Below are positions 8,172 through 34,610 of a stretch of 64,000 nucleotides of DNA, one piece after another. Each line of letters begins with the position of its first letter. Positions within the stretch are counted from its first letter, which is position 1. The position numbers were made by a program, and so were the translations under genes. The notes under the pieces are model-generated. The model had not been told where the DNA came from and made no database searches. It saw nothing but the letters and a program-made list of their open reading frames with translations. The stretch covers positions 1 through 64,000 of the forward strand of contig JAGYIG010000010.1 in assembly GCA_018402455.1 (NCBI GenBank), given 5' to 3'. Source of the DNA: Opitutaceae bacterium. Lineage in GTDB: Bacteria > Verrucomicrobiota > Verrucomicrobiia > Opitutales > Opitutaceae.

Positions 8172-8699
8172 ATGAAAACGGCCGCAGACGATGAAAACGC
8201 AGGAAATTGGATCGCAGCAGCGATGCGCGAGCATCAGGCCCCCCTGGTGCGCTATGTGGCGCGTTTGGTGGGCGGCGACTTGGGCCGCGCTCAGGACGTG
8301 GTGCAGGATGCTTTTTTGCGGCTCTGCCAGCAACCGGCCGAGGAAGTTCGCGGCCACACGGTGGAATGGCTTTACACCGTGTGCCGTAATCGGGCCATTG
8401 ATGTGGTGCGCAAGGAGGGGCGCATGAGGGCGTTTGCCGAAGGGGAAGCCGACCAGGTGAGCGCGGCGGATGCCCGCCCCGGACGGGCCTTGGAAGCCGC
8501 CGAAACTCAGGCAGCGGTGCGGGCGTTGATCGAACAACTCCCGGCCAACCAGCAGGAGGTCGTTCGGCTGAAGTTCCAGAGCGGTTTCAGTTACAAGGAG
8601 ATCAGCCGGATCACGCAGCTCTCCGTGAGCAACGTGGGTTATCTTATCCACATGGCGGTGAAACAATTGCGAGCCGATTTGGCCGCCCAACAACCCTGA
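8172..8699 (+). CDS. RNA polymerase ECF-type sigma factor
   Basis: A 175-aa sigma-70 family protein with region 2 at about 24-90 (RAQDVVQDAFLRL, then TVEWLYTVCRNRAIDVVRKE) and region 4 at about 117-168 (LPANQQEVVRLKFQSGFSYKEIS, then the helix-turn-helix). It has no long linker and no region 3, which defines the extracytoplasmic-function class. It is followed after 11 bases by a protein whose N terminus looks like the membrane-anchored regulator usually paired with this class. The pair probably forms an envelope-stress regulon whose targets cannot be deduced from this window. Confidence 0.95.
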   Translation: MKTAADDENAGNWIAAAMREHQAPLVRYVARLVGGDLGRAQDVVQDAFLRLCQQPAEEVRGHTVEWLYTVCRNRAIDVVRKEGRMRAFAEGEADQVSAADARPGRALEAAETQAAVRALIEQLPANQQEVVRLKFQSGFSYKEISRITQLSVSNVGYLIHMAVKQLRADLAAQQP

Positions 8700-29335: not shown

Positions 29336-30997
29336 TCAACGATGGCGACCGTGGCGCATGGTGTCCCAGATGATGTAAACCCCGACCATCGCGGAGAGCA
29401 GGTAGCCGACGATCCCGAGAGCGGGATAACCAAACAGCAGGGGCTTGATCCCCGTGGTCACAATCATGGATGAGCCGATGATCAATGATCCCGAAACCAA
29501 ACCAAGGGTCACCCGGTTGGAGGCCGTTTCGATGGAGTTGTCCAGGTCGTCCAGACCTTTGTGCTCCAGATTGACGGTGATGTCGTCGTGTTCGAATCGT
29601 CGCACCAAGCGCGACATGCTGGAGGGCAGTTCCTGCAGGCTCGCCAAGGTGCCGCGCAAGAATTCCCGGGAGCGCCGCGCCATGGCGCGGGGACCGGTGC
29701 GTTCGCGAAACAGTTGTTTCAGTATCGGGCCCGCATGATCGCGCAGGTCAAACTTCGGATCGAGGGCCCGGCCCACCTCCTCGATGGCCAGCACCGCCTT
29801 GGCCATCAGCGAGTAATCGCGGGACAGGGGAATGCCATGATTGCCAAAAATGAAGAGCAGCTTGAGCATGGCTCGCCCGATTTCCTGACGACCAATGGAA
29901 AAGTTGAGCTCCTCGCGCAGCGCCAGGGTCACGTCCTTTTCCATTTCGCGCAGGTCGGTGCGGGACCCCGGGGGGGCCAACTCCGCGGCGATGCGCACGA
30001 CGTTTTCGGCATCGCCCTCCACCGCGGCGACCCAGAAGTCGGCCAGCGCGTAACGCAGCCGACGGGTCAGGTGCCCGGCCAGTCCCCAATCCAGAAAACA
30101 AAGGCGTCCATCGGGGGTGACCAACACGTTTCCGCTGTGGGGGTCGGCGTGGAAAAAGCCGTCAATCAGCACCTGGCGAACGATGGAAGAGGCTCCTTCG
30201 GCGGCGAGCTCCCGGGCGCGTTTGGCGTCAGTGTTTTCGGGTCCAACCGGTGCCCCTTCGACAAACTCCATGACCAGAATCTTGGCGGTGGTGTAGTCGT
30301 TGAACACCCGGGGCGCGAACACGTGCTCCGGGGCAGGGTTCTTGGTGTTGAAGTAGGATTGGTTGCGGGCCTCGTGGCGAAAATCGATCTCGCGCTCCAC
30401 CCCCTCCTTCACCGCCTCCACCACGGACGGCAGATCGAAGGGCTTGAGGGCTTTGATGCGCTGGTGAAGTTGATCGGCCAGCCACTCGGCCAGGTCGAGA
30501 TCGGCCTCGATCGAGCGGGCGATTCCCGGCCGTTGCACTTTGACCGCCACCGGTGTATCCGATTCGTGGAGACGGGCGTGATAAACCTGGGCCAAGGATC
30601 CCGCCGCCATCGGCGTTTCGTCAAACGCGGCGAACACCCGCGCCGGATCCCCCTCAAGCTCCTCCGTCATCAGGTCCCGGATCTTGGCAAAGGGCACCGG
30701 GGCGACCGCGTTCTGCAGCTTGCGCAACTCGAGGATCAAAGGATGCGGAATCAGATCCGGCCGCATGCTCAACAGCTGACCGAACTTCACCCACGCGGGG
30801 CCCAACTCTTCGGCGGCCAGCCGAATGCGCTCCCACTTTGATTTCTTTTGCAGGGGCGGACTTTGGAAGCGCCGGGCCAACGCGGCCGGCAGGTCGAGCT
30901 GGTTGATGAAATCGGCAAAACCGTGCCGGGCGAAGACCGTAAAAATCTCCTTCGCGCGAACGGCGTTGCCGAGCAGGTCGAAGGGCTCGGTGCCGAT
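29336..30997 (-). CDS. UbiB/ABC1/AarF-family atypical kinase, start codon unclear
   Basis: An ABC1-family protein-kinase-like ATPase needed for quinone metabolism in model bacteria. Family signatures: KFGQ (KxGQ motif), the Ala-rich loop PMAAGSLAQVYHA, nucleotide-site Lys in VAVKVQRP, HADPHSGN, and LDWG in place of DFG. Two C-terminal membrane helices follow (SLIIGSSMIVTTGIKPLL, GIVGYLLSAMVGVYIIW). Homology (EPFDLLGNAVRAKEIFTVFARHGF) continues in frame upstream of the first possible start, a TTG at 30880, to about 30985. No ATG, GTG or TTG exists before the in-frame TGA at 31025-31027. An ATC at 30997 is given as the boundary only because homology begins near it. An indel or a fusion with the phasin-like gene is likely. 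Confidence 0.8.
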   Translation of the reverse strand: MGTEPFDLLGNAVRAKEIFTVFARHGFADFINQLDLPAALARRFQSPPLQKKSKWERIRLAAEELGPAWVKFGQLLSMRPDLIPHPLILELRKLQNAVAPVPFAKIRDLMTEELEGDPARVFAAFDETPMAAGSLAQVYHARLHESDTPVAVKVQRPGIARSIEADLDLAEWLADQLHQRIKALKPFDLPSVVEAVKEGVEREIDFRHEARNQSYFNTKNPAPEHVFAPRVFNDYTTAKILVMEFVEGAPVGPENTDAKRARELAAEGASSIVRQVLIDGFFHADPHSGNVLVTPDGRLCFLDWGLAGHLTRRLRYALADFWVAAVEGDAENVVRIAAELAPPGSRTDLREMEKDVTLALREELNFSIGRQEIGRAMLKLLFIFGNHGIPLSRDYSLMAKAVLAIEEVGRALDPKFDLRDHAGPILKQLFRERTGPRAMARRSREFLRGTLASLQELPSSMSRLVRRFEHDDITVNLEHKGLDDLDNSIETASNRVTLGLVSGSLIIGSSMIVTTGIKPLLFGYPALGIVGYLLSAMVGVYIIWDTMRHGRHR

Positions 30998-31353: not shown

Positions 31354-32259
31354 TCACACTTCGACGGTCGGTCTCTCAATGAGGCTGAAGGTTTCACGGA
31401 GCAGACCCAGAAACTGGGTGGCACCCGTGGTCTGGTAGCGCTGGAGGTGGCGCACCACCGCAATCTCCCGGGTGGGCGTCTTGCCCCGTAACTGGCGGTA
31501 AACCAGTTGCGGGCGATCATCGGGGCTCTGGGCGAGTTGGGGCAGGATGGCGACCCCCAGCCCCAGCCCCACCAGTTCCTTGAGCATGGCGACTTGGGCA
31601 CAGGTGTGACCGATACGGGGCTGAAACTTGTTGGCGCCGCAAAAACTCTGGATCTGTTGGGTCAACGAGCTGCTTTCGCCCAGCATGATAAACGTCTGCT
31701 CCGCCAAGTCGGCGACGGTGAATCGGCGCTTGCTGGCCAAAGGATGGCGTCGACTCACTGCCAGCACCAAGGACTCAACAAACATGGACTCGGCGGCGAG
31801 TTGAGGCTCGTCGATCGGCTGGGCGACGATCGCCATGTCGAGGGCGCCCTTGGCGACGTCGCGCAACAGGTCGGTGCGGAAGGACTCGGACGTATTGATC
31901 CGCAGGTTGGGGAGCTGCTTCTGACAACGCTTGATCAACCCCGGGAGGATGTAGGGGGCGACCGTGGGGATCGCCCCCACGGAAATCGATCGATTGAGTC
32001 GGGGGTTGTCCCGAATCTCGCTGGACACATTATCAACCTCGGAAAGGATCCGTCGGGCCCGCTCAATGAACATCTCACCGGCCTCTGTGGGAACGGCCCG
32101 CCGCCCCAGCCGATGGAACAGCTTGTGACCCAATTCGGTTTCGAGTTTTCCAATCTGTTGGCTCAAAGAAGGTTGAGCCACATTAACGGCATTGGCTGCT
32201 CGGGTGAAATTCCCCGTTTCTGCAATGGCCAACACGTAGCGCAATTGGGTTAATTCCAT
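31354..32259 (-). CDS. OxyR-like LysR-family regulator with Ser at the peroxidatic-Cys position
   Basis: A 301-aa LysR regulator: helix-turn-helix at 1-60 (GNFTRAANAVNVAQPSLSQQIGKLE), then an OxyR-like effector domain. Aligning IMLGESSSLTQQIQSFC with E. coli LLMLEDGHCLRDQAMGFC puts Ser198 at the peroxidatic Cys199 and Cys207 at the resolving Cys208. Other cysteines are 112 and 220 (HTCAQVA). In E. coli, replacing Cys199 by Ser blocks peroxide activation. So this protein either is redox-blind or senses by another cysteine. Its own start codon lies inside an OxyR-type operator, pointing to autoregulation, and it faces a small membrane-protein gene. Confidence 0.88.
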   Translation of the reverse strand: MELTQLRYVLAIAETGNFTRAANAVNVAQPSLSQQIGKLETELGHKLFHRLGRRAVPTEAGEMFIERARRILSEVDNVSSEIRDNPRLNRSISVGAIPTVAPYILPGLIKRCQKQLPNLRINTSESFRTDLLRDVAKGALDMAIVAQPIDEPQLAAESMFVESLVLAVSRRHPLASKRRFTVADLAEQTFIMLGESSSLTQQIQSFCGANKFQPRIGHTCAQVAMLKELVGLGLGVAILPQLAQSPDDRPQLVYRQLRGKTPTREIAVVRHLQRYQTTGATQFLGLLRETFSLIERPTVEV

Positions 32260-32294
32260 AGATAAAAACTATATAAATCATAGAAAGCGTATAT
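32258..32294. promoter_or_regulatory. OxyR-type operator
   Basis: The sequence reads ATAG-N7-CTAT-N7-ATAG-N7-ATAT. The OxyR consensus is four such tetramers (ATAG, CTAT, ATAG, CTAT) at exactly this spacing; only the first base of the last tetramer differs. The internal T and A of the first half-site also match. It overlaps the regulator's start codon (32257-32259) and ends at the -35 of the divergent promoter, which is the usual place for an activator to touch RNA polymerase. Confidence 0.72.
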
Positions 32295-32322
32295 TTCAAC
32301 AATTGAAATAATGGGTTATATT
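32294..32322 (+). promoter_or_regulatory. Predicted promoter of the 59-aa membrane protein gene
   Basis: TTTCAA (32294-32299) and TATATT (32317-32322) are separated by 17 bases, giving a weak -35 and a good -10, as expected of an activator-dependent promoter. Transcription would begin near 32330, leaving a leader of about 40 bases. The stretch 32294-32308 is also an inverted repeat (TTTCAA-CAA-TTGAAA). Confidence 0.5.
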
Positions 32323-32368
32323 ACCGGTGTCGCTCAATTACGGGCGGCGGCAAACGAAAGAAACTATC

Positions 32369-32548
32369 ATGAACAACCTGAACCTTAAATCTGCCCTCCT
32401 CGGTGGCGGCCTCGTCTCCTTGGCCTGGGTCGTTTCGGTCGCGCTGACCATGAACGGTCTTTTGGTCGGTCTGAGCGTTTACGCGATCGCGGCCGTCATT
32501 CTGGTCACGGTCGATGACTACCACCACACCAGCAAGGATCTGCGCTAA
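32369..32548 (+). CDS. Small two-helix membrane protein (59 aa)
   Basis: Starts at ATG 32369 after the purine-rich GAAAGAAA. The product has two hydrophobic segments (about 8-27, ALLGGGLVSLAWVVSVALTM, and about 29-47, GLLVGLSVYAIAAVILVTV) and a short polar tail DDYHHTSKDLR. I recognise no family. It has its own promoter next to the OxyR-type operator and its own terminator 36 bases after the stop, so it is a single-gene unit. Its likely controller is the divergent OxyR-like protein. Confidence 0.8.
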   Translation: MNNLNLKSALLGGGLVSLAWVVSVALTMNGLLVGLSVYAIAAVILVTVDDYHHTSKDLR

Positions 32549-32583
32549 GCGGTTTCTTTTGACTTTCGCTAGGCACCAAAACG

Positions 32584-32612
32584 CGGCCCGGGGTAACCCG
32601 GGCCGTTTTAAT
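32584..32612 (+). terminator. Rho-independent terminator of the 59-aa gene
   Basis: Nine-base GC arms CGGCCCGGG (32584-32592) and CCCGGGCCG (32597-32605) with a four-base loop, followed by TTTTAATTTTT. Confidence 0.9.
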
Positions 32613-32665
32613 TTTTCAGGCGAAACCCGATGGATACGGGCAGAGGACCCCGGTTGGGGGCGCAT

Positions 32666-32724: not shown

Positions 32725-33273
32725 TCAGGCGATGACCGGCGGGGGCGGAGGGACCGCGTCGACCGCAGCGCGCTTGAGAAAGGCGGCAACGATGAGGCTG
32801 ACGATGAAACCCATCACAAAACCAAAGAAAAAGTTGGTAACGGCCATCATGGCGGGACTGGTCATAAAGGCGATGATCCCCTCGGCCTGTTCAATTGCAT
32901 TCGCCGGGATCCCTTGTTCTTCCATCTTGGCGATCTCACTTTCGATGATGATTTCAGAAAGTCCGGGATTGATGGCGGTTGCGTAGACGACGGAAAGGAC
33001 GGCTCCAACGAGGGCCGACCAAAGCGCCGTCAGGGTGCCGGTGCCGAGGGCTCGGCCGTAGCCGAAGCCTTCCTCCGGAACGAATTCTTCGCGGCGGGCT
33101 TTCATCACCAAGACCAATCCCACCACCATTATGATGAGTGCGCCGACGGAGCCGATCGTCTGACCGGTGGCGAGTTTTTCCACATCGCTGTGGAAGCCCG
33201 CGAAGAACAAAATCAGGCCCAGCACGAAGCTGGCCGCTGCCATACCGATACCGTAGATGAAGGTGGTTTTCAT
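32725..33273 (-). CDS. DUF4199-family membrane protein
   Basis: A 182-aa protein from ATG 33273 (MKTTFIYGIGMAAASFVLGL). It has four predicted membrane helices: about 5-25, 37-55 (IGSVGALIIMVVGLVLVM), 75-95 (TALWSALVGAVLSVVYATAI) and 143-165. A cytoplasmic or periplasmic amphipathic stretch lies between the last two. DUF4199 proteins are common in Bacteroidota and Verrucomicrobiota; their function is unknown. A longer start at 33312 would add 13 residues without family support. Confidence 0.85.
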   Translation of the reverse strand: MKTTFIYGIGMAAASFVLGLILFFAGFHSDVEKLATGQTIGSVGALIIMVVGLVLVMKARREEFVPEEGFGYGRALGTGTLTALWSALVGAVLSVVYATAINPGLSEIIIESEIAKMEEQGIPANAIEQAEGIIAFMTSPAMMAVTNFFFGFVMGFIVSLIVAAFLKRAAVDAVPPPPPVIA

Positions 33274-33703
33274 GTCGGCGCCAAGTTGAGCCCACGCAGG
33301 CGGGGTTGCCAATCCCGCAAGTGACCGGCGGTTTCAGGGAGAGGACGAACGGCCGCATGAATTTATGGATTCAGATTCACCAATGCCGAAAGCCCCGGCC
33401 GGAGGGATGGGGAGGCTCGTCCCCAAATCCCGCAAAATCCACCAAGCCCGCAAAATCCGCCGCGGATCGCGCACGTTGAGCTTCACCGGTCACCAGAGAT
33501 GACAAGTGGCTCGGGCGCGGGTGGGCGTTTGGGGGAGTAGTTCGAGCCGGCCGGAGACGCTGGTGGCGCCGGAGCGTTGGCCGAAGTCCGTTTTGATGAC
33601 AAAAGATCTGGCGGGGTGGGCAAATCTGCCGTGGGCAATCGCGTCCCCGCAACCGGGAACGGATTACGCGCTGTCGGGGACGAGGAGGAAAGGCGGGGTC
33701 GCC
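33274..33703. other. 430-base gap; short direct repeat, no gene seen
   Basis: No open frame here has coding character or a sound start. CCCGCAAAATCC occurs twice, at 33429-33440 and 33447-33458, an 18-base period. The rest is unstructured GC-rich DNA between the DUF4199 promoter side and the end of the AIM24-like gene. Confidence 0.6.
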
Positions 33704-34498
33704 TTATTTTCCGTCGATGAGGCGACCCAGGCCGCCTAGCACCGAGCCTTCGCCGGTTTGTTTGCCGCCATGGCGAGGGGCGGAGGAGATGATGCGGTCG
33801 GCGAGGCGGGAAAAGGGCAACGACTGCAACCAAACCGTGCCGGGACCACGGAGAGTGGCGAAGAACAGGCCCTCGCCGCCGAAGAGTGCGGTCTTCACGC
33901 CGCCCACAAATTTGATGTCAAAATCGACCGAAGGCTGAAACGCGACGATGCAACCGGTGTCGACGCGAATGGTCTCGCCGACTTCCAAGGTGCGCTCGTG
34001 CAGCGTGCCGCCTGCGTGCAGGAAGGCCCAGCCGTCGCCTTCCAGGTCTTGCATGATGAAGCCTTCCCCCCCGAAGAAACCGGCGCCGATTTTTTTATTA
34101 AAGGCGATGCCCACGCTCACGCCCTTGGCCGCGCAGAGAAACGCGTTCTTTTGCGCCAGCAGTCGACCCCCGAGGGTCGAGAGGTGAACCGGCATGATCT
34201 TGCCTGGGTAGGGCGCGCCGAAAGCACAGCGTCGTTTGGCGCCGCCGCGGTTGAGGAAAACCGTCATGAACAATGACTCGCCGGTGAGCAGACGTTTGCC
34301 GGCGCCCATGAGCGATCCGACAAAGCCATCGTGCTTTTGGGACCCGTCACCGAAGATGGTCTCCATCTCGATGTCGGCCTCCATATACATCAGCGCGCCA
34401 GCCTCGGCGACGACGGCCTCGCCGGGATCAAGTTCAACAATGACGAACTGCATGTCGTCGCCTTCAATCCGGTAATCGATTTCGTGCATGGAATTCAT
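33704..34498 (-). CDS. AIM24/TIGR00266-family protein
   Basis: A 264-aa beta-rich protein. From the ATG at 34498 it reads [17 protein letters not shown]; the second ATG (34489) is an equally good start. Signatures: [22 protein letters not shown], then [20 protein letters not shown], and [20 protein letters not shown] near the C terminus. The fold repeats a double-psi-like beta unit. The family is widespread in bacteria and includes mitochondrial AIM24; the function is not known. The gene appears to be on its own. Confidence 0.9.
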
Positions 34499-34610
34499 GG
34501 AGCGTAGCTTGGGAGGTGGGGGGGGGCTGGAAACGTTGAAAAAGACCAAGACAGGGGGGCGGGGTAGGGCCAGCGAGTCGGGTCGCTTCCGCTCCCCGCT
34601 ACTTGGTTGG

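Follow-up and report, generated by a model that had tools for sequence, protein, structure and literature searches.

OxyR is a textbook sensor, and its presence is often deduced from its operator and its cysteines taken together. At the Escherichia coli oxyR-oxyS locus, three ATAG-n7-CTAT repeats have been placed at -66, -44 and -35 relative to where oxyS begins (PMC5002191). The model given there for this group of loci has IR1 overlapping the regulator's promoter, IR1 and IR2 together activating the target, and IR3, which lies over the -35 element, repressing it; the same study has CynR and IlvY as LysR-type regulators with a comparable three-site divergent plan (PMC5002191). On the protein side, PMC8289212 describes the reactivity of Cys199 as critically dependent on His198, and counts Thr129 and His198 among the residues touching a docked compound that reaches towards the H2O2-binding region. 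OxyR relatives with an altered cysteine set are also on record, for example Deinococcus radiodurans OxyR (DR0615), which senses H2O2 by a single cysteine, C210, and acts positively on catalase (PMC2225504).

We analysed a 64-kb stretch of DNA from an Opitutaceae bacterium (the window), for which an earlier note, made from the letters alone, had reported an OxyR-like gene with a near-perfect OxyR operator at its start. The locus resembles E. coli oxyR-oxyS in its ATAG-N7-CTAT repeats, its divergent layout, an operator over the start region of the regulator and a short divergent transcript. It differs in that the regulator lacks the Cys199/His198/Thr129 set, that no peroxide regulon is visible, and that the divergent transcript is not the OxyS RNA but contains a small ORF. 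In our reading, this is probably an OxyR-derived regulator that has kept its operator while changing its signal and its target, and that binds the operator it overlaps. The site and its conservation, the phylogeny, the residue changes, the linkage to the target and a predicted hairpin were all read from sequence. In the clade described below, operator and cysteines come apart, and anyone annotating from the operator alone would expect a peroxide regulon, of which we see no sign; together with its C199-bearing sisters, the clade would form a natural series in which a regulator's signal changes without a change in the DNA site. Among the titles and abstract openings that we searched, with subscription papers thinly covered, we found no Verrucomicrobiota or Opitutaceae OxyR-derived regulator with such a target.

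An OxyR-type operator over the regulator's start codon

On the plus strand, positions 32258-32294 of the window read ATAG ATAAAAA CTAT ATAAATC ATAG AAAGCGT ATAT, with 15 of the 16 consensus bases and one mismatch, exactly as the earlier note had described. At up to three mismatches, this is the sole match to ATAG-N7-CTAT-N7-ATAG-N7-ATAT in the window (100 dinucleotide shuffles gave 0 matches at the same threshold) and the single match in the whole assembly (3.67 Mb, approximately 91% complete). A match at three mismatches by itself means little, because the reversed control pattern yields two matches on each strand of the same assembly; a 15-base form with at most two mismatches recovered the site in the window's genome and gave 0 matches for the control. 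The observation in the earlier note is confirmed. An ATAG-N7-CTAT repeat operator at the regulator's own divergent promoter is what is found for OxyR, and identification of the site as a candidate OxyR-type operator is supported.

The first inverted repeat, IR1 (ATAG-N7-CTAT, 32258..32272, plus strand), overlaps the start codon of the regulator gene (31354-32259, minus strand), and the operator includes the first two bases of the ATG, in agreement with the overlap noted earlier. By the model in PMC5002191, autorepression would be expected from this repeat. IR2 (ATAG-N7-ATAT, 32280..32294, plus strand) adjoins the -35 element of the divergent gene and would be the expected activation site. The abutment claimed in the note is also seen, in that the last box touches a weak, putative -35 TTTCAA (32294-32299), which is followed after 17 bp by a -10 TATATT (32317-32322), giving a likely start near 32330. 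We assigned this putative promoter (32294..32322, plus strand) because TATAnT is the majority sequence at this spacing across 27 aligned loci; a consensus promoter scan of the region called no promoter.

Beyond the fourth box, the relatives have in common an extra CTAT, 9 bp further on, which is an exact ATAG/CTAT in 18 of the 27 loci and reads CAAT in the window. It makes up the right, conserved half of an IR3-like overlapping site with a 9-bp shift (32289..32303, plus strand), the left half of which is weak. With the majority TATAnT taken as the -10, the repeat centres in the window fall at -65, -43 and -34 from the putative start, and all three overlapping sites agree within 1 bp with the oxyR-oxyS positions given in PMC5002191. 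The extra half-site had been left out of the earlier account, as had the 5' hairpin and the missing sensor cysteine described below. The window also has a perfect 8-bp inverted repeat, TATTTCAA-N3-TTGAAATA, over the -35 (32292-32310), the right arm of which is absent from most relatives in the 27-locus alignment.

Conservation of the operator, at the regulator and away from it

A search for the regulator protein in 57 relatives led to 30 loci. The intact unique set leaves out L026, which is without its N-terminus and has an operator score of 9/16, the partial match L003 (33% identity, 10/16), and the duplicates L001, L002 and L034. In all 29 intact unique loci found by protein, the single best site is an operator that matches 14 or 15 of the 16 bases, and regulator identity among these loci goes as low as 38%; conservation at this promoter, which the earlier note had named as a test of its reading, is thus complete in this set. 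The operator lies at exactly -35 relative to the ATG in 27 of the 29 loci, at -38 in L033, which is a C199-bearing OxyR, and at -54 in L022. In the alignment of 27 loci, which are related to one another and do not make 27 independent observations, the operator columns have a mean of 1.80 bits versus 0.49 for the spacers; of the 15 operator columns, two hold bases (A and T) that belong to the start codon itself. Because of its conservation across related loci, we take the operator to be a working one.

At L026 (in G007), the first 51 residues are missing from the regulator match, and immediately upstream there is an ORF resembling an IS3-type integrase (named by eye from its translation), which looks like an interrupted gene or an assembly join.

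In a phylum-wide draw, the extended pattern was present in 29 of 387 genomes and its reversed control in 2. Twelve of the 29 genomes were known before and 17 were new; the site coincides with the start of an OxyR-like regulator in 15 of the new ones and in 27 of all 29, and the matches in the other two (G334 and G119) look like chance. Given that box 1 is in part the regulator's start codon and that promoter elements are nearby, the pattern could be kept merely by its overlap with the start codon and two promoters, with no regulator reading it. We find this very hard to credit: the boxes hold an 11-bp period although the spacers between them are variable, and operators are also kept where they do not contain the start of a regulator gene. 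G026 has three additional ones, which have retained 14, 14 and 15 of 16 bases and on whose far side no regulator frame is open; at one of them (L082) there is an ATG on that side, followed by a stop after three codons. A hydrophobic ORF of 56-58 residues starts 93-97 bases from the first base of each; at the expected distance, the -10 is a clear TATAGT in two of them and weak in the third. Two of the three copies are close neighbours with near-identical sequences, so we count the three as two events. In G055, moreover, as an example from the C199 side, a 14/16 operator stands before an ahpC-type peroxiredoxin gene and a thioredoxin-reductase-like gene (L081, the latter named by eye from its translation), again with no regulator adjoining. 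We thus retain the reading of an operator that is probably bound by a regulator.

A probably OxyR-derived regulator with altered sensor residues

The regulator is a predicted LysR-type protein of 301 aa (31354..32259, minus strand), which we read as OxyR-derived. Both Pfam domains score above their cut-offs (PF00126, HTH_1, 80.6 bits; PF03466, 170.7 bits), as expected of a LysR-type member. The NCBIfam OxyR equivalog NF008361 gave 162.6 bits against a cut-off of 329, which is exceeded in none of the 34 genomes, and the best-scoring NCBIfam model for the window protein is CynR (185 bits, compared to 163 for OxyR), with every listed model below its cut-off. L033, which carries C199 and faces katA, is likewise under the OxyR cut-off and has GltC as its top model. 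Because the window protein and L033 both fall below every listed cut-off, the NCBIfam models are unable to decide the identity of the window protein. Structure prediction for the window protein gave a mean pLDDT of 36 alone and of 39 with two relatives, and nothing usable.

For the phylogeny, we defined a clade of 39 members, 28 from the loci found by protein and 11 new ones from the phylum-wide operator scan. All 39 rows come together in the tree (support 99/93) and join three ahpC-facing OxyRs first (96/85), and the 57 rows made up of these 39 and 18 C199-bearing OxyRs form one group (95/90), so that the clade is nested among the C199-bearing OxyRs of the phylum. E. coli OxyR, CynR, CysB, HcaR and IlvY fall outside the 57-row group on long branches, which sets CynR and IlvY apart from the window regulator despite the shared plan. 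A tree that unites E. coli OxyR with the group in one clade is not rejected (p-AU 0.576), a value that does not demonstrate such a clade. The simplest reading of the tree would be a single loss of Cys199 inside an OxyR radiation.

The gene is therefore OxyR-like, as the earlier note had it, in that it groups with C199-bearing OxyRs of the phylum; the part that does not stand concerns the peroxidatic position, where it has a serine. With E. coli numbers read from an alignment to K-12 OxyR, Ser198, Ser197, Arg128 and Cys207 of the window protein correspond to Cys199, His198, Thr129 and the resolving Cys208, and a further cysteine, Cys220, is present. Peroxidatic Cys199 occurs in 0 of the 39 clade members and in 18 of the 18 comparison OxyRs. 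In the clade, position 199 is Ser in 15 members, Thr in 19, Ala in 4 and Val in 1; position 198 is Ser in 37, Ala in 1 and Thr in 1; and position 129 is Arg in 37, the exceptions being L025 (Leu) and L028 (His), which means that His198 and Thr129 are also replaced in 39/39. The 18 C199-bearing relatives have His (15) or Asn (3) at position 198, Thr (17) or Ser (1) at 129, Cys (16) or Tyr (2) at 208, and Ser (14), Cys (3) or Thr (1) at 220.

With all three residues replaced, the peroxide sensor that the note implied is not supported. A functional peroxide or thiol-stress sensor could in principle use Cys207 or Cys220 in place of Cys199, as the single-cysteine sensing of the Deinococcus protein illustrates: the former is kept in 21 of the 39 clade members and the latter in 37, compared to 3 of the 18 C199 OxyRs. 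We nevertheless consider such a sensor unlikely, given the wholesale replacement of Cys199, His198 and Thr129, two clade members (L094 and L095) that lack both Cys207 and Cys220 and yet keep the operator (3 mismatches, extended pattern), and a window genome (approximately 91% complete) in which we found no other operator and none at katG. A small ligand rather than H2O2 is, from the residues, the most likely signal. A bound small molecule is suggested by the change from Cys199-His198-Thr129 to Ser/Thr-Ser-Arg, and an anion by the arginine, with Arg128 perhaps holding it; Leu in L025 and His in L028 at this position count against a universal role of the arginine.

Targets of the C199-bearing relatives, and no peroxide regulon seen in the window's genome

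Seventeen of the 18 C199 loci adjoin a peroxide scavenger, namely a Pfam catalase/katA in 8, a KatG-type peroxidase in 6 and an ahpC-type gene in 3, the last three encoding peroxiredoxins with a 1-Cys C-terminal domain. The eighteenth, L113 (G262), faces an ORF of 106 aa in which only a catalase C-terminus is recognisable by eye, and its genome has no PF00199 match. An operator of at least 12/16 was found in 11 of the 14 C199 loci identified by protein, the remaining three (L069, L076 and L077) scoring only 10/16, which is near chance; the other 4 C199 loci were found through the operator itself (13 to 15 of 16), and the overall figure of 15/18 at 12/16 or better includes these 4. The Verrucomicrobiota C199 OxyRs (e.g., G011, G013, G001 and G102) thus share operator class, in most cases operator position, and tree group with the window regulator, but they keep C199 (18/18) and adjoin a scavenger (17/18), and the window clade has neither. 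As judged from gene neighbourhoods, the predicted target goes with the cysteine: C199 loci face scavengers, and clade loci a small hydrophobic ORF.

Four C199 loci facing katA or katG (L065, L066, L067 and L102) have an extra ATAG/CTAT box 11 bp past box 4, so that boxes 4 and 5 together read ATAT-N7-CTAT, a repeat separated from IR1 by one helical turn. A repeat at this distance from IR1 is expected for reduced OxyR. In L071, L087 and L113 the extra box lies 9 bp past box 4, unlike the 11 bp in these four.

The earlier note had proposed to scan the genome for the tetramer upstream of peroxide-defence genes. No second operator was detected at up to three mismatches. The window's assembly (approximately 91% complete) has no catalase-domain match and no 1-Cys-peroxiredoxin C-terminal match, and it has one KatG, in whose gene region there is no operator match of at least 11/16. 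The same holds for 6 of 7 other katG regions examined, and the seventh has one 11/16 match, located at the gene's 3' end. By sequence only, then, we see no control of peroxide-defence genes, and with a divergent gene that encodes a 59-residue hydrophobic protein and a katG without operator, the implied peroxide regulon is not supported. Taken as a whole, the earlier interpretation held for the OxyR-type operator, its conservation and the grouping of the protein with OxyR, and failed for the peroxide sensor and regulon.

Of the 28 genomes whose clade regulator was found by protein, at least 7 also encode a C199-bearing OxyR (counted among the stronger second matches that we looked at), and a canonical OxyR from elsewhere in the genome might accordingly bind the site instead of the adjacent protein. 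We give this very little credence. In a search of 34 genomes, ten that have this regulator gave no second OxyR-family match at 1e-30, the window's genome being one of them (about 9% of it may be missing), and the operator is situated at the regulator gene in 28/28 intact clade loci found by protein. The adjacent, OxyR-derived regulator remains our candidate for binding the operator.

A small hydrophobic ORF behind a predicted hairpin

The putative divergent target is an ORF of 59 aa (32369..32548, plus strand), which, judging from its sequence, is hydrophobic and probably a membrane protein. All 39 clade loci face an ORF of 52-97 residues, where start codons were chosen among in-frame ATGs and hydrophobicity was assessed by inspection, with hydropathy computed for 5. 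Pfam and NCBIfam gave no family for the window's 59-aa protein, and in a Pfam search with 23 aligned small proteins, six families matched one or two members each, at E 0.0015 or worse. A model built from the 23 proteins matches 24 of the 57 genomes (its own members by construction), and its only matches elsewhere are two weak ones (G006 and G034). It misses the small-protein subgroup of G015, G019, G020 and G026, and a second model made from this subgroup finds those genomes, including a tandem second copy in G015, with weak matches in G003 and G008. Between the two subgroups there are no cross-model matches save a weak one in G020 and one in G035; the two are probably homologous. Other genes near the locus in the window encode an ABC1/UbiB-like kinase (29336-30880, PF03109), a DUF4199 protein (32725-33312) and an AIM24 protein (33704-34549).

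In most of the 39 clade loci, the small ORF lies behind a predicted 5' mRNA hairpin, which in the window is at the start of the divergent leader (32326..32351, plus strand). Because the MAFFT leader alignment was too gappy for pair counting, we tested the hairpin by dinucleotide shuffles of each sequence and by an arm-swap comparison. The mean shuffle z was -2.5 in the 28 loci, with 28/28 negative and 25/28 below -1. The 11 operator-found loci gave a mean of -2.4 (7 below -2, one at -0.8 and three positive, namely L094, L095 and L099), and 12 C199 loci, taken at the same distance, a mean of -0.3 with two below -2. When arms were swapped between loci, they paired fully in 5% of cases, compared to 100% own pairing, which holds by construction as the arms were picked from each sequence's own fold. 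We considered the hairpin as a second DNA operator and rejected it, in view of the 23 different inner stems seen among those 26 loci (of 28) that have at least 5 pairs; such variation between loci fits an RNA structure better than it fits a site in DNA. L094 (G226) and L095 (G214), both without Cys220, are also without a significant leader hairpin, and count as one event because they are near-identical.

By eye, the leader after the hairpin is A-rich and without a clear Shine-Dalgarno sequence. Downstream, an intrinsic-terminator-like site (32583..32616, plus strand) would close a transcript of approximately 290 nt. Rfam returned two matches, with E-values of 0.037 and 0.064, both falling far short of the gathering score and covering the terminator region. 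The plainest reading would be that the 5' hairpin protects the mRNA.

A proposed mechanism and a further operator

On the proposed origin, the regulator would have arisen inside the Verrucomicrobiota OxyR radiation, its nearest lineage facing ahpC-type genes, and the peroxidatic cysteine would have been lost together with changes in its surroundings (C199 to S/T/A/V, H198 mostly to S and T129 mostly to R). We infer binding and the direction of control from the layout: the regulator would occupy IR1 and, as expected, silence its own promoter, and upon signal a second dimer would move from IR3, over the -35 (off), to IR2, next to the weak -35 (on), where its occupancy would turn on the divergent small-protein gene. 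We lean, with less confidence than in the core reading, towards a fuller history in which an OxyR lineage turned its peroxide pocket into a ligand pocket centred on a conserved arginine (T129R, H198S, C199S/T and a new Cys220), and in which the operator, near-unchanged, was passed from catalase or ahpC-type genes to a so far undescribed type of small membrane protein with a hairpin-led mRNA and spread to several loci in one species. If so, the inducer could reveal the role of the small proteins.

G026 has one more operator, L083 (8298-8334), which matches 14/16 bases and has a -10-like element. Between it and the following gene, at 8658, there is no ORF that we could name, and within approximately 220 bases comes a terminator-like hairpin followed by a run of T, so that L083 may possibly give rise to a non-coding transcript reminiscent of OxyS.
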